Below, in pieces: positions 3,828 through 12,043 of a stretch of 35,803 nt of DNA (the first letter of the stretch is position 1; every line of letters begins with the position of its first letter). This DNA comes from a virus, in IMG/VR virus record IMGVR_UViG_3300032224_000826, positions 1-35,803 of that record. One strand, given 5' to 3'. The notes beneath the pieces are model-generated. The model searched no databases, was not told where the DNA came from, and saw only the letters and a program-made list of their open reading frames with translations. Made by a program: the position numbers and the translations under genes.

Positions 3828-4033
3828 CGCCGCTTGACCCGACACGACTCGAAAGCGTGGTCGACGCGCTGACCGATATGGCGACCGCGAAGGCAGCTGA
3901 CGCCGCAGGTGTCTCGACGGCAGACGTGGTCGAGACAGTCGGCTACGACGTTATTCGTGACTTAGCTATCGAATCGCTGGCGAAGATAATGATTGAAGAC
4001 TTCGAAACTGTCTGCGCAAAGGCAGCTGGCTAG
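3824..4033 (+). CDS. Small hypothetical protein (69 aa)
   Basis: The GTG start is in a GTGA overlap with the preceding stop. The product is helical and acidic, with a repeated pattern of Val/Ala/Asp (VVDALTDMATAKAADAAGVSTADVVETV). The stop shares a base with the GTG of the initiator gene at 4033. No family is recognised. Confidence 0.6.
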   Translation: MTPLDPTRLESVVDALTDMATAKAADAAGVSTADVVETVGYDVIRDLAIESLAKIMIEDFETVCAKAAG

Positions 4034-4779
4034 TGCGCTGGTACGCGATGCACAATCAGTTTCTGAGCGACGAAAAGATCGAAGTCGTGGGCGAAGAATT
4101 CGGCCCGGTAGGGCCGCTGATCGCTGTAGCGCTTATGGCTCGCGCCAGCACGCTGGGCGAAGGTGGCGCTGTTCACGGCACCTATCGCGATATGGCGCAC
4201 GACTGCTACGTGAAAGACCGTGACGTGGTCGAGTCGGTCATAAAGCGCCTGATCGACGTCGGTTTTCTCGCAGGTGAAGCGAACGGTCGCGGCTACGCCT
4301 GCACGATTGAAAACTGGTCGAAATGGCAGGCGGCTTTCAGGCAGGCGAAGGCGCGTGAGCAGAAAAAGTCACGCTGTGTCACAGGCGAGTCACGGTCTGT
4401 CACAGACCTGTCACGGAAAGTCACTAACAAGACAAGACAAGACAAGACAAGACAAACAGAGACTAAGCGTCTAGAAGTCGAGCGCGTGTATAACGCGTGG
4501 GTACGTGCGACAGGTAAGTCACGCACGAAGCTGACGAAGTCTCGATCTGACCTGATACGGCGTCGGCTAGATGAATGGTCGACAGATGACTTGATCGCAG
4601 CGGTTGAAGGCATCGCCGCTTCGCCATTCCACAGGGGCGAGAATCCTGCGCACCGCGAATACCTGTCAATCGAGCTGGCGCTGCGCGACGCTGAGCATAT
4701 CGAACGCTTCATCGACGAATCTAAGGGCGCGGCTGCAGCGAAGAAGCCGAATCCGTTTCTAAGTGATGCCGGTGAATAA
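4033..4779 (+). CDS. Replication initiator / DnaD-like replisome organiser
   Basis: The 248-residue protein has an N-terminal winged-helix-like domain (MHNQFLSDEKIEVVGEEFGP... through VGFLAGEANGRG and WSKWQAAFRQAKAREQKK). A low-complexity linker follows with three 7-residue units, SRCVTGE, SRSVTDL and SRKVTNK, then a TRQDK repeat. The C-terminal domain (about residues 150-248) resembles DnaD/replisome-organiser modules (RRRLDEWSTDDLIAAVEGIA...NPAHREYLSIELAL). The linker is the protein reading of a DNA iteron array, so the origin probably lies within the gene, as with lambda O. Next comes a DnaB-like ATPase. GTG start with 1-base overlap of the preceding stop. Confidence 0.8.
   Translation: MRWYAMHNQFLSDEKIEVVGEEFGPVGPLIAVALMARASTLGEGGAVHGTYRDMAHDCYVKDRDVVESVIKRLIDVGFLAGEANGRGYACTIENWSKWQAAFRQAKAREQKKSRCVTGESRSVTDLSRKVTNKTRQDKTRQTETKRLEVERVYNAWVRATGKSRTKLTKSRSDLIRRRLDEWSTDDLIAAVEGIAASPFHRGENPAHREYLSIELALRDAEHIERFIDESKGAAAAKKPNPFLSDAGE
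4368..4455 (+). other. Candidate replication origin: phased iterons plus GACAA repeats
   Basis: GTCAC occurs at 4368, 4378, 4389, 4399, 4410 and 4420, spaced 10, 11, 10, 11 and 10 bases, so all copies face one side of the helix. They form three 21-bp units. Two centres are palindromic (CTGTG-T-CACAG and GTCTGT-C-ACAGAC). Immediately after come five tandem GACAA units (4431-4455), preceded by a related AACAA at 4426; this segment is GC-poor with strand asymmetry and is a good candidate unwinding element. Location inside an initiator gene follows the lambdoid arrangement. Confidence 0.72.
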
Positions 4780-5731
4780 ACGCGATTCGCTGTGGGCGAT
4801 GCGTCGGCGCGCAATTCTGCTGGCTGCTGACGCCGTCGAGAGTCGATCAGCAGACGACTGGGCAGCCGCTGACGCGCTGCTGTTCGAAGCGCGCTCGACT
4901 CGACCGCTAGGTGATAACACCTACCAGCGCGAAGACGCGCCGCAGCGAATTCAGAAGCTAGTCACCAGCGAGCCGCAGAAGACGTGGCAGCTGCCGTTCG
5001 ATGAATTGAACACCTGCCTTATGGGTGGACTGCGACCCGGCGCGACCTGCGTGATTGCAGGTGAACGCGGTCACGGTAAGTCGATTCTGATTGACCAGAC
5101 CCTTGAAGACTTCGCGCATCAGGGCGCGTCGTGTCACCTACTGCTTTCTGAAATGTCGGTCGCAGATCGTGACTCGCGCTGGATTCAGCGCCGAACGGCC
5201 ATAGCCGAAGAAAGAGTGCTGGCTGGTGATCTGAACGCAGACGAAGTCGAACGCGTCGTAAGTGAAGCTGAGACTTTCCCGTGGACGGCAAGCGAAGTCG
5301 CAGGTGCCAGCTTCGGTGATATCGCTGACCTAATGCTTGAATACCCAGCAGACGTGTTCGCGCTCGACCTGCTTTCGCGCGTGCCAGCACGCGACCATCG
5401 CGAGCTAGAAGCGGGCTTCAGTCGCCTAGTCGACGCTGCCCGTATGACCGGCGCGCTGCTTCTGGTCGGCCACCATTTCAATGAAAAAGGCGTTGACGAT
5501 AGCGGCGTGCGTCTTCGCCGTCCGACACTTGCAAACCTGCGCGGCTCAGGCTCGATAGCCAATTTCAGCGACGCCGTGATGATCGTCGCTCGCGACCACG
5601 ACCCAGACGACGGTGCGCGGCTTCTGTCAAGTGCCGAAATATGGCTGGCGAAGGTCAGGGCAGGTCGACCCGGCGGCTGTAAGGTCAGGCTGAATAGCAC
5701 GCAGATTCGCTTCGACGCGGTGGCGGCGTGA
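4763..5731 (+). CDS. DnaB-like replicative helicase / RecA-fold ATPase
   Basis: The protein is 322 residues. After an N-terminal helical region, a RecA-fold core begins near residue 75 (WQLPFDELNTCLMGGLRPG), a typical DnaB/RadA entry. It contains a Walker A motif GERGHGKS (100-107), LLLSEMS (127-133), and a Walker B-like strand DVFALDLLSRV (about 195-205). VGHHFNEKG and an RGSGSIANFSDAVMIV segment follow, the latter matching the DnaB sensor and Gly-Ser-x-x-I motif. It lacks a full primase-binding N-terminal domain, so it is shorter than bacterial DnaB. It follows the initiator and probably works with the TOPRIM primase encoded beyond the integrase. Confidence 0.85.
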   Translation: MMPVNKRDSLWAMRRRAILLAADAVESRSADDWAAADALLFEARSTRPLGDNTYQREDAPQRIQKLVTSEPQKTWQLPFDELNTCLMGGLRPGATCVIAGERGHGKSILIDQTLEDFAHQGASCHLLLSEMSVADRDSRWIQRRTAIAEERVLAGDLNADEVERVVSEAETFPWTASEVAGASFGDIADLMLEYPADVFALDLLSRVPARDHRELEAGFSRLVDAARMTGALLLVGHHFNEKGVDDSGVRLRRPTLANLRGSGSIANFSDAVMIVARDHDPDDGARLLSSAEIWLAKVRAGRPGGCKVRLNSTQIRFDAVAA

Positions 5732-6311: not shown

Positions 6312-7760
6312 TCACGCCTGCAGATCGACGTCGCTTCTGATCGTCACCCAGTCAATAGGCGCCGCTGGCGCTGCTTTATGGCCCTGACCGGGCACGTCTT
6401 CGTCAGGCGTTGACAGCTTCACGCGTGTTTCAAGCGGCACGCCGCGTCCGCGCTTGACCCACACAGACCCGATAGTGCCGACGATGACCTGACGACGCTC
6501 GATCACGGTCAGCGAGGGCCAGACGTCGTCAATGCCGCCAGAAAATACAGGTAATTCAGGCCCACGCGCTGCCTGTAGGTCACGTCGAGCAGTCTCGACG
6601 GCATCTGATCGCTGACGCAGACCACTGGCGAAGACTTCAGCGGCTACACCAGATGCCTGCGTGCCTTCGATGAATGCTGCCAGCTCAGTTTCTGCTTCGG
6701 TCAGTCTGGCTTCAAGCGCTGCCAATTCGTCGCGCTGCTGCGTAGTCTCGATGTGCAGTCGATCACGCAGGTATGCCAGCACCGAATCTTCGACCAGTGC
6801 TTCTATCTGCGGCTGCGATACCCACGCAGCATCGGTGCAGTGCTGGTGTGCGTGGTAGCGCTTGCACTTGTAAGCACGCTGACCGCGATAGACGCTCATA
6901 AGGCGTTGACAGCCTGCGCATCTGACCAGACCTGCCAGCAGCACCGGCTGCGAGTCTGGATTACGAGCAGGGCGCGTGCCTTTCGCCTGCTGCGCGGCGT
7001 TCCACAGATCGACTTCGATAATGGCTTCATGCGCTTCTAGATTCGGCGTGAACGGCTTTAGGTGTAGCTCGCCCAGATAGACGCGATTTCGCACGACTGA
7101 TCTTGCACCGTTCGGTGACTTGCCTATCACTGTGCCGACGTCAACCCACGACCCGCCAGCTGCGCGAAGCTCGAAGGCTTTCCTGACCAGTTTCGCCGCT
7201 GCCTTATCAGGCTTCAGCTTGCCGTCGCCACCATCGCGAACGCGCTTGACCTGATAACCGAACGGCACCTGCGAGCCGACTAGCAGGCCACGTTCTAGCG
7301 CCTGCTTTTTTGCGTCGCTGAATTGCGCGCTGTAGCGGTCGCGCTGCATCGCACCGATTGACAGCATTAGCGTTCGACTCAGGTTGCCTTCTGGTGTACC
7401 GGCGTCGAAGTTTTCGGCCACCGAAATTACCTGACCACCGTAGCCTTCAATGCGTTCGATGATCTTCAGCGCGTCGACTACGGCCATACGCGACAGCCGG
7501 TCAAGCTGAGCCACGATCAGACCTGCGTAGCGACCTTCGGCAATATCGTCGATGGCTCGATCAAGAATCGGCCTGCTGGTGCGTGCGCCTGAAACGTCTA
7601 GCTCTGGGTCAAGCATTTCGACGCTCAGACCACGCGCTGCTGCGTAGCCTTGAATGCGTTCAGCCTGTAATTCAGGTGAAATTAGCGTTTCTTCCCTGTC
7701 GCCTACTCGCGACACGCGCCGGTATCCTGCCCACGTTTTTACGTCCGAAGTGCCTGACAC
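6312..7760 (-). CDS. int: Large serine recombinase (phage integrase)
   Basis: The 482-residue protein shows the full large-serine-recombinase layout. The N-terminal resolvase domain carries the catalytic Ser in WAGYRRVSR (Ser17) and GLIVAQLDRLSR. A recombinase domain with PFGYQVKRV and VYLGELHL follows, then a zinc ribbon CAGC...CKRYHAHQHC (about residues 285-310). A coiled-coil segment (QRDELAALEARLTEAETEL) and a C-terminal tail come last. GTG at 7760 is chosen because GAAAGGA precedes it at good spacing and the resolvase domain begins there; an upstream ATG at 7853 would add about 31 unrelated residues. It catalyses attP x attB integration. It sits in reverse orientation between the helicase and primase genes. 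Confidence 0.95.
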   Translation of the reverse strand: MSGTSDVKTWAGYRRVSRVGDREETLISPELQAERIQGYAAARGLSVEMLDPELDVSGARTSRPILDRAIDDIAEGRYAGLIVAQLDRLSRMAVVDALKIIERIEGYGGQVISVAENFDAGTPEGNLSRTLMLSIGAMQRDRYSAQFSDAKKQALERGLLVGSQVPFGYQVKRVRDGGDGKLKPDKAAAKLVRKAFELRAAGGSWVDVGTVIGKSPNGARSVVRNRVYLGELHLKPFTPNLEAHEAIIEVDLWNAAQQAKGTRPARNPDSQPVLLAGLVRCAGCQRLMSVYRGQRAYKCKRYHAHQHCTDAAWVSQPQIEALVEDSVLAYLRDRLHIETTQQRDELAALEARLTEAETELAAFIEGTQASGVAAEVFASGLRQRSDAVETARRDLQAARGPELPVFSGGIDDVWPSLTVIERRQVIVGTIGSVWVKRGRGVPLETRVKLSTPDEDVPGQGHKAAPAAPIDWVTIRSDVDLQA

Positions 7761-7773
7761 GATTTCCTTTCTG

Positions 7774-8484
7774 ATGATCGCCCCCGTCGGTACACAGACT
7801 GTACCTAGTCGCAGCGACAGTTCTAGCGCTGCTGCTAGACCCAGTGTAGACACACCTGCGCGTGAATACCTTCGCGGCCACGCTGTCGACCTGAATCTGG
7901 CAGCCGAAGTAGGCGTGACGGCTGACGACTACTCGATCAGTTTCCCGTATGCACGCGCTGACGGCAGCCACTATTACAGGCGTCGCACGTTTAGCGATGG
8001 CATCTGCCGACAGCCGAAGGGCGAATTACTTTCAATGTTCTGGCCGCTGGGCGTCGGTGCTCGCGTGCCAGTCATTCTGTGCGAAGGCGAAGCCGACACG
8101 CTAGCCGCTGCAAGCGTGGTCGATTCGTCAGATCACCCGCTGCTTTCTGATCTGTGCCCTGTCGGTGTACCCGGCGCCAGCTTCCCGGCCACGCGTGTAG
8201 CGCGTGACTTGCGTGCAGCTGGTGTAGGCAGGGCATACGTCGTATTCGATGCTGACGAAGCCGGTCGCAAGGCGACGGCGCGTGTATCTGCTGAGCTTGA
8301 ACGTAAGGCGATAGGTGTCGTGCCAGTCGAGCTACCCGACGGCACAGATCTTTCTGACTTTCTGGTCGCCGCAGATAACCGCGAAGAAGCACTGGGCAAC
8401 CTGCTCGCTGACTTTCTGATTGTGCGCGACGAAGCAGCAGGTGCGCTGGCTGCTCAGTCAGTACGCGAAAGGTTGCAGCGATGA
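7774..8484 (+). CDS. TOPRIM-domain primase-like protein
   Basis: The 236-residue product has AREYLRGHAVDLNLAAEVGV (residues 29-48), as in DnaG-type primase relatives, then VILCEGEADTLAAASV (the TOPRIM Glu) and AYVVFDADEAGRKA (the TOPRIM DxD). It ends with a D-L-S-D-F-L motif (PDGTDLSDFL) typical of primase/helicase TOPRIM regions. It lacks an N-terminal zinc domain and the helicase half, which is supplied by the separate gene at 4763. ATG 7774 is 13 bases from the divergent integrase start; no strong ribosome site is visible, and a longer in-frame start at 7654 would lie within integrase coding sequence. Confidence 0.85.
   Translation: MIAPVGTQTVPSRSDSSSAAARPSVDTPAREYLRGHAVDLNLAAEVGVTADDYSISFPYARADGSHYYRRRTFSDGICRQPKGELLSMFWPLGVGARVPVILCEGEADTLAAASVVDSSDHPLLSDLCPVGVPGASFPATRVARDLRAAGVGRAYVVFDADEAGRKATARVSAELERKAIGVVPVELPDGTDLSDFLVAADNREEALGNLLADFLIVRDEAAGALAAQSVRERLQR
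7789..7805. repeat. Inverted repeat beside the integrase start (candidate attP core or operator)
   Basis: GGTACA-CAGAC-TGTACC is a perfect 6-bp inverted repeat with a 5-base centre, 29 bases upstream of the integrase start codon. Serine integrase attP sites are short, partly symmetric and usually abut int, so this is a candidate attP centre. An operator controlling int is an equally good reading. It lies inside the 5' end of the primase gene. Confidence 0.45.
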
Positions 8485-10078: not shown

Positions 10079-10864
10079 ATGATGGCGCACGAAAATAAGC
10101 TGCGGCTTGACGGTTCGGCAGCGCCAATTTATAGCTCGCAGGAATCCCTATTAGGTGAACCCGAAGTTGTCGGCTGGCGAAAGGGCGATCTTGCTGTTGA
10201 AGAAATCGACCGCGATATTGCTAACGAAATTATTCGTCAAAATCACTATTCGGGCAAGATTTATAAGGGCACGTATCTTCACTATGGCGCGTTTTGGCGC
10301 GGCGAATTGGTCGGAATTGCGCAGTACGGCTATGCGATGAATCCGGCGTCGCAGGAAAGCGTTGTTTCGGGTACCAAATTGAATGAATACTTGGAGCTGA
10401 ATCGTTTGTGGGTCGACGATTCGATGCCGAAAAATAGTGAATCGGCGTTGCTAGCGCTAACACTACGTGTCATCAAGGCGACAACGCGGGTCAAGTGGAT
10501 TCAGTCGTTTGCCGATGAGCGATGTCGTTTGTTTGGAGCCGTGTATCAGGCCTGCTCATTTCTTTATTGCGGCGAACACACTGCGACGTTTTGGGAAGTT
10601 GAAGGCACTTGGTTTCACAATTCGCTGATGAGCCGCGACCCAAGCCTGACACCGAAGGCACGCTTCTTGCAGGAAAACAAACACAGGGCGACGCCTTACA
10701 ACCTTCGTCAGTTTCGGTATTTAAAGTTTCTTGACCCAAGCTACCGAAGCAAGTTGCAGCTCAAAACCTACCCGTACCCCAAACCCGATGCGGAAGGCGT
10801 AGAAGAAACGAACCCTGCAAACCAGCAGGGCAGTGTCGGTGCGATGCCGACCCTCCGCTCCTAG
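10079..10864 (+). CDS. mom-like: Mom-like adenine modification protein (GNAT fold)
   Basis: The 261-residue protein has the Mom family pattern: IANEIIRQNHYSGK near residue 48 (the conserved NHYSG), YLHYGAFWRGELVGIAQYGY, then YLELNRLWVDDSMPKNSESA (about 106-125). IQSFADERCRLFGAVYQACSF and YCGEHTATFW follow. In phage Mu, Mom converts adenine to N6-carbamoylmethyladenine and protects DNA from restriction. Base composition is clearly less GC-rich than in the flanking genes (many AAT, ATT, TTT codons), indicating recent acquisition. No strong ribosome site precedes ATG 10079 or 10082. The C-terminus extends past the domain with a Pro/Tyr-rich tail. Confidence 0.85.
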   Translation: MMAHENKLRLDGSAAPIYSSQESLLGEPEVVGWRKGDLAVEEIDRDIANEIIRQNHYSGKIYKGTYLHYGAFWRGELVGIAQYGYAMNPASQESVVSGTKLNEYLELNRLWVDDSMPKNSESALLALTLRVIKATTRVKWIQSFADERCRLFGAVYQACSFLYCGEHTATFWEVEGTWFHNSLMSRDPSLTPKARFLQENKHRATPYNLRQFRYLKFLDPSYRSKLQLKTYPYPKPDAEGVEETNPANQQGSVGAMPTLRS

Positions 10865-11569: not shown

Positions 11570-11620
11570 ACACGCCGCGCGCGCCCCCTTTCTCGCAGAC
11601 GCGGCAGGCGTCGTAGTGGA

Positions 11621-12043
11621 ATGGCACCACGTCGGCCACACCAGCCGAAGAAGCCCGTTCGATTCGGGTCGACGCCACTACCGATCACCACGACTATGCC
11701 ACGCGCAACTATCTGTCTTGAATGCGGCAGGCTAATCAGTCGCGGCCCACGCTGCCCTACCTGCGTGAAGGCTCGACAGGATAAGCACAACGCCGACACC
11801 AGCTTCTACCGTTCACCTGAATGGCGAAGGCTGCGCAGCATAGTCACACGTGATGGCTGCATCGTCTGTGGCACCCACGACCACGTGATCGCACACCACG
11901 TCGTACCACGTGCAGAAGGCGGGACTGACACCATAGAGAACCTGCGACCACTGTGCGTGCGACACCATAATCAGATCGAAGCAGACCTACGTGCAGGCAG
12001 ACAGTCACCACTACGCACACTGGTCGAAGGCACCGACTACTAA
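11621..12043 (+). CDS. HNH endonuclease next to terminase
   Basis: Two zinc knuckles (CLECGRL and CPTCVK) precede a canonical HNH core: YRSPEWRRLRSIVTRDGCIV, CGTHDHVIAHHVVPRAEGGT, and ENLRPLCVRHHNQIEADL. This gives His-His...Asn...His with CxxC zinc support. HNH proteins encoded just upstream of TerL are required with terminase for cos cleavage in several phages. ATG 11621 gives 140 residues; ATG 11696 gives 115 and starts directly at the conserved part. Neither has a strong ribosome site. Confidence 0.88.
   Translation: MAPRRPHQPKKPVRFGSTPLPITTTMPRATICLECGRLISRGPRCPTCVKARQDKHNADTSFYRSPEWRRLRSIVTRDGCIVCGTHDHVIAHHVVPRAEGGTDTIENLRPLCVRHHNQIEADLRAGRQSPLRTLVEGTDY

Follow-up and report, generated by a model that had tools for sequence, protein, structure and literature searches.

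Replication origins that lie inside initiator genes are already known. In phages of the lambda type the origin occupies the middle of the O gene and consists of iterons plus an AT-rich tract (PMC7466680), whereas in phage SPP1 oriL lies within gene 38 and is bound by gp38 (PMC6316719). As described for SPP1, direct repeats and an AT-rich unwinding element sit inside the gene for the origin-binding protein, and both the helicase loader and a DnaB-type helicase are encoded by the phage (PMC6316719). In initiators of the RepA_N group, such as those of plasmid pSK41 and of the PLE satellite, a DnaD-like N-terminal domain binds iterons (PMC7145576); these iterons are semi-palindromic and converge on a poly-A tract, and those of PLE are non-coding.

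Here we describe an initiator gene in a stretch of 35,803 nucleotides that constitutes an IMG/VR virus record (the window). As in the lambda origin (also that of Stx lambdoid phages) and in SPP1 oriL, tandem direct repeats lie within the initiator coding sequence and adjoin a region of low stability, here the 40 bp from position 4425; in lambda, as in the window, this tract is rich in purines or A, and a gene for helicase loading comes next. The lambda iterons, however, are four in number, 18 bp long and set at steps of 20, 24 and 23 bp, whereas the window has six boxes of 5 bp, one per helical turn. Moreover, lambda has no run of identical pentamers at 10/11-bp spacing, and it is P that follows O, rather than a DnaB-like helicase gene. 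Because 18-bp dyad iterons of the lambda type, at steps of ~20–24 bp, are absent from the array of the window, and because the window initiator has no O-family match in Pfam, we conclude that it is not a member of the lambda O family; it would nonetheless work like the lambda O and SPP1 gp38 systems. The boxes differ from RepA_N iterons in being short, non-palindromic and in-gene. A Pfam search of the window initiator gave no RepA_N hit, and a fold search (Foldseek, VIA), the list from which was dominated by generic winged helices, gave neither a RepA_N nor a DnaD match, which speaks neither for nor against such kinship. The rep gene of TP901-1 has no exact 10/11 run.

Closer in their DNA are initiators of prophages of E. 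coli and other bacteria ('DNA replication protein O' or 'phage replisome organizer'), which carry the boxes of the window, at the same 10/11-bp spacing, in the linker that follows the N-terminal domain, and in which a short tandem purine-rich tract again follows the boxes. (Note that these genes were not retrieved as relatives when the window protein was the query.) Unlike the window, those of E. coli have two arrays ~229 bp apart and a tract built of GATAAA/GATACA units. On the strength of such sequence comparisons, we consider it about 85% probable that the segment described here is the core of a phage replication origin of the initiator-binding kind, lying inside the initiator gene. This reading had been put forward in a preliminary description of the window, and comparison supports it, in that the boxes are conserved as DNA, are found in other initiators and lie in a gene that adjoins a helicase gene.

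The array and its setting

The features of the locus are collected in Table 1. The preliminary description had reported six GTCAC boxes at spacings of 10/11/10/11/10 bp, a 21-bp unit, and five GACAA repeats after the boxes. All six boxes are exact, the GACAA units start at 4431, 4436, 4441, 4446 and 4451 (4431–4455), and Tandem Repeats Finder independently returned a period of 21 bp at 4367–4416, as well as one of 5 bp at 4427–4455. The 7-residue SRxVTxx repeat that had been noticed in the protein is indeed encoded, as SRCVTGE-SRSVTDL-SRKVT, and is followed by NKTRQDKTRQ. No identical 5-mer in the window forms a longer run at 10/11-bp spacing than these six GTCAC, others reaching at most three copies per run, and when the window as a whole was shuffled 200 times by dinucleotides, no run exceeded three either. 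Given the peptide and the codon usage, the chance of all six boxes is ~2e-5, and 3 of 20,000 synonymous shuffles retained all six. These shuffles, of the window and of synonymous codons, rule out chance or low complexity as the source of the boxes. An inverted repeat was looked for inside the GTCAC array and none was found, and RNA structure was rejected as an explanation, the array segment folding no better than shuffles (z -0.26).

Table 1. Features of the initiator locus (positions in the window)
Feature	Position	Strand	Basis or detail
Replication initiator gene, 248 aa, GTG start	4033..4779	+	PHROG 16167; AlphaFold2 model
Winged-helix DNA-binding domain (predicted), residues 8-92	4054..4308	+	AlphaFold2 fold; CAP-type PDB matches
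Linker codons, residues 112-138, predicted disordered	4366..4446	+	pLDDT <50
Phased array, six GTCAC boxes	4368..4424	+	starts 4368, 4378, 4389, 4399, 4410, 4420
Low-stability purine-rich tract with (GACAA)5, proposed DNA-unwinding element	4425..4464	+	stability scan
C-terminal helical part (predicted), residues 134-230, DnaD-like / initiator C-terminal type	4432..4722	+	PHROG, AlphaFold2
DnaB-like replicative helicase gene	4763..5731	+	PHROG 19 E 7e-22; Pfam DnaB_C E 4.5e-16

That the array lies in an initiator gene, as had been proposed, is borne out by the family match to PHROG 16167, by a predicted winged-helix fold and by a DnaB-like helicase gene that overlaps the 3' end of the initiator gene. 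In particular, the PHROG 16167 profile ('replication initiation protein') was matched over residues 128–241 with E 1.1e-15, PHROG 10469 ('DnaD-like helicase loader') with E 1e-6, and PHROG 18020 ('O-like') weakly, with E 0.006. The AlphaFold2 model comprises an N-terminal winged helix, a disordered linker and a helical C-terminal part. Elements of the N-terminal domain follow the order H-H-H-E-H-H-E-E, with block pLDDT mostly 81–92; the top PDB matches of the model are winged helices of the CAP type (Z 8.2 over 65–69 residues), and its fold neighbours in BFVD include phage replication proteins. We propose, from the model, that the winged-helix domain would be the reader of the GTCAC boxes, and the family names suggest the C-terminal part as a putative recruiter of helicase. 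The low-pLDDT linker between them is encoded by DNA that coincides with the array and extends into the tract.

The initiator scores below the curated cut-off of Pfam Lin1244_N (PF14297; 16.5 bits versus 25), as does the relative L178 (14.0 bits, cut-off 25), and a search for the DUF1376 family in its own and in control genomes gave no match. Distant named relatives are the initiators of Marinomonas phage P12026 and Vibrio phage VvAW1. Relatives of the N-terminal domain were found in one contig only among viral contigs, and, within the phylum of an Acidobacteria metagenome-assembled genome (MAG), in that MAG itself only.

In its wider gene content the window is typical of temperate tailed phages, with an exonuclease, a serine integrase, a primase-like Toprim protein, and terminase, portal, capsid and tape measure proteins. 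The large serine integrase gene (6312–7853, minus strand) lies between the helicase gene and the Toprim primase-like gene, and the listed open reading frames 6312–7853 (-) and 7654–8484 (+) overlap by ~200 bp at their 5' ends. A Mom-like DNA modification protein (10079–10864; PHROG 1384, E 1.7e-52) suggests that the phage DNA may be modified, and a single tRNA gene, tRNA-Val (CAC), lies at 11607–11678, shortly before the terminase region.

Regulators, too, typically have phased sites and winged-helix domains, and plasmid iterons serve both as replication origins and in regulation or copy control, which raises the possibility that the initiator, seated on the array, controls the transcription of its own operon or sequesters itself as a form of copy control, without opening an origin. 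The array, however, is placed mid-gene, more than 300 bp into the coding sequence, and has a low-stability tract after it; moreover, the closest characterised analogues (lambda O and SPP1 gene 38) are origins. An operator of this kind is, in our judgement, unlikely.

The low-stability tract 3' of the boxes

The tract had been described as GC-poor, which is true locally: its 40 bp are the least stable in the gene and, across the window, rank among the least stable 0.25%. The cumulative GC skew, suggested earlier as a check, did not bear out the origin reading, as there is no turn at 4.4 kb and no origin signal; the nearby peak at 5.5–6 kb coincides with a change of gene strand and is uninformative. 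Among 32 initiators with GTCAC arrays that we curated, the 50 bp 3' of the array are GC-poorer than the gene itself in 28 and purine-richer in 25. The unit of the tract differs from initiator to initiator, being GACAA in the window, GATAAA/GATACA in E. coli, GACAG in L178, GGAACAG in P12026 and GGAAAG in VvAW1.

A converse search, for AAGAC tracts only, returned 24 loci, most of them in a family of genes that do not resemble initiators (FEQSGTFKNEF...), and only ~6 that are initiator-like; one of the latter (L015) carries six GAAGT boxes at 10/11 spacing. Because AAGAC tracts occur in a gene family of non-initiator appearance, the tract alone is not diagnostic, and since the same microsatellite is found in phage genes unlike initiators, a role for the GACAA tract is held with less confidence. 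An AAGAC microsatellite (encoding TRQDKTRQDK) is present in a recurrent phage gene (FEQSGTFKNEFIKLGIPAEDYD...; L006, L008, L011, L022, L026 and similar loci), in which we saw no resemblance to initiators.

YdaU of the Rac prophage of E. coli K-12, considered as a GTCAC example, was rejected, GTCAC being absent from it. The protein has a different N-terminal domain, and its gene carries GTTCA-like repeats and then a GATAAAGATACAGATAAAG tract that resembles the one in GTCAC-type genes of E. coli. The linker repeats and tract of ydaU (L356:9120-9977) are a candidate place for the Rac origin oriJ.

The likeness between these genes bears on whether repeat and tract might instead be a recombination joint, a short homology through which N- and C-terminal parts of initiators are swapped, and which persists through recombination or slippage. 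Consistent with such a joint, YdaU differs in both its N-terminal domain and its repeat, yet the linker goes on with a GATAAAGATACAGATAAAGAT-type tract similar to that in GTCAC-type genes of E. coli, and AAGAC microsatellites occur in another gene family. Slippage, however, gives identical copies, whereas here the spacers diverge while the boxes are exact and the 10/11 phasing is kept; the helical phasing would be left unexplained, and exchange at the joint could be a secondary consequence. We hold a recombination joint to be a very improbable origin of the array.

Conservation and recurrence of the boxes

The only close relative of the window that we found (L002, 94% protein identity) retains all six boxes with their spacing. 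Over the 57 positions of the array, the two sequences differ at 8 of the 27 spacer bases and at none of the 30 box bases (Fisher p 0.0013), and several of the spacer differences change the protein (C to D, GE to DL, S to P and L to Q). The preliminary description had named, as evidence against itself, a repeat that varies as DNA in relatives while the peptide is kept; what we found is the reverse, the boxes of L002 being fixed and the peptide varying, and other initiators carry GTCAC boxes in every reading frame and in either orientation. In the 32 curated initiators, GTCAC is in frame 0, 1 or 2 in 6, 5 and 10 genes, respectively, and reversed, as GTGAC, in 11. Because all three frames and both orientations are represented among the arrays, it is, as judged from these comparisons, the DNA that is conserved across phage initiators and not the peptide. 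The peptide-level repeat is in frame, has a regular 7-residue period in the window and in many initiators occupies a linker position next to a basic stretch, as if selection acted on SRxVTxx heptads, as a linker that is basic and flexible or as a surface for contacts, and the repeat in the DNA were secondary, yet relatives retain GTCAC and lose the peptide, the array is found in all three frames and reversed, synonymous shuffles destroy it and the linker is predicted to be disordered, so that this explanation, largely refuted by the frame, shuffle and L002 comparisons, is rejected as exceedingly improbable.

The distribution of the array was assessed with a 4-box pattern, GTCAC-N5-GTCAC-N6-GTCAC-N5-GTCAC, which has 20 fixed bases. 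It is present in at least 119 viral contigs and at 46 bacterial or archaeal loci in one-genome-per-species assemblies (257 Gb), where base-count arithmetic with equal base frequencies would predict ~0.5. The 46 loci come from Proteobacteria, Desulfovibrio, Firmicutes, Actinobacteria, Acidobacteria, Chloroflexi and others. Many 4-box loci, not all, lie in phage initiator genes, directly behind the codons for the N-terminal domain and for a basic stretch (SAERxRRxRxRK); some others are in prim-pol-like genes, unrelated open reading frames and non-coding DNA. Since the pattern also occurs outside initiators, the array by itself is no proof of an origin. At three loci (L169, L172, L179) GTCAC/GTGAC arrays of 10/11 spacing lie within prim-pol-like replication proteins, and one chromosome of a Dehalococcoidia MAG has several TGTCACA-rich 10/11 arrays (L147, L156, L176) in short open reading frames or non-coding DNA, not obviously in phage initiators.

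Boxes in the 32 curated initiators are spaced by 10 bp (79 cases) or 11 bp (47), these loci having largely been picked through the 10/11/10 pattern; genes selected by protein agree, with spacings of 10 bp (19), 11 bp (1) or other (2). Within the E. coli-prophage gene family, the boxes of one array pass through all three frames and the order of 10s and 11s differs between members. One E. coli-type array region is matched by 2013 of 5426 complete E. coli genomes (~37%). Five initiator genes from phages of E. coli, Aeromonas and Pseudomonas (L029, L039, L044, L378, L379) contain two GTCAC arrays, one in the codons of the N-terminal domain and one in the linker, 228–252 bp apart and mostly 229.

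Selection by motif was avoided in a sample of 45 non-redundant initiators gathered through similarity of the N-terminal domain at the protein level. Runs of an identical 5-mer at 10/11-bp spacing reach at least three copies in 23 of these genes, at least four in 13 and at least five in 5, as against at least three in 2 and at least four in 0 of 125 neighbouring open reading frames, and synonymous shuffles of the 45 genes gave means of 1.6 genes with a run of at least three and 0.1 with at least four. The preferred spacing of such runs is 10/11 bp, with a second peak at 5–7 bp that reflects the tandem tract; in about half of the 45 an exact 10/11 array is absent. GTCAC or GTGAC is the word of Desulfovibrio-type genes and of some genes of the Phage_rep_org_N type. 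Other clades of initiators keep the same rhythm with other words: AACGCC, GTAAC or GACAA, and, in the RTVKPEFW clade, TCGAC or ACTCA.

A model for initiation and its implications

What the sequence shows is an array that is conserved as DNA and recurs in initiator genes, together with a tract of low stability and a neighbouring helicase gene. We infer origin activity, and, by analogy with lambda O and SPP1 gp38, protein binding, melting and helicase loading. In the model that we propose, copies of the initiator would use their winged-helix domains to bind the six GTCAC boxes. Because the boxes recur every 10–11 bp, they would share one face of the helix, and the bound subunits would line up in a row. 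The resulting complex would strain and open the GACAA tract next to it, which is rich in purines and of low stability, and the DnaD-like C-terminal part would then deliver the phage DnaB-like helicase, the product of the next gene, to the opened strand. The 7-residue repeat of the linker would be a by-product of the 21-bp period in the DNA, which the linker could tolerate because it is predicted to be disordered.

More broadly, we lean towards the view that GTCAC/GTGAC, once per helical turn, is a recognition word common to a large and varied set of phage winged-helix initiators with otherwise little likeness in sequence, marking in-gene origins of phages and prophages across many bacterial phyla, and that sister clades use other five-letter words at the same 10/11 rhythm. 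We found no description in the open-access literature of GTCAC-phased in-gene arrays, nor of pentamer boxes that are phased per helical turn and common to many dissimilar phage initiators, and we claim no priority on that basis. If the arrays are origins, the start of replication could be read from sequence for very many temperate phages, including many E. coli prophages and phages of many other phyla. The low-complexity linkers of phage initiators (SRxVTxx, VTxSHxxVT, DTDKDTDK, KTRQDKTRQ, GTGNREQ), a well-known quirk of their annotation, would then be the shadow of sites in the DNA, and the clade-specific words would constitute a natural panel for how a winged helix reads an origin.
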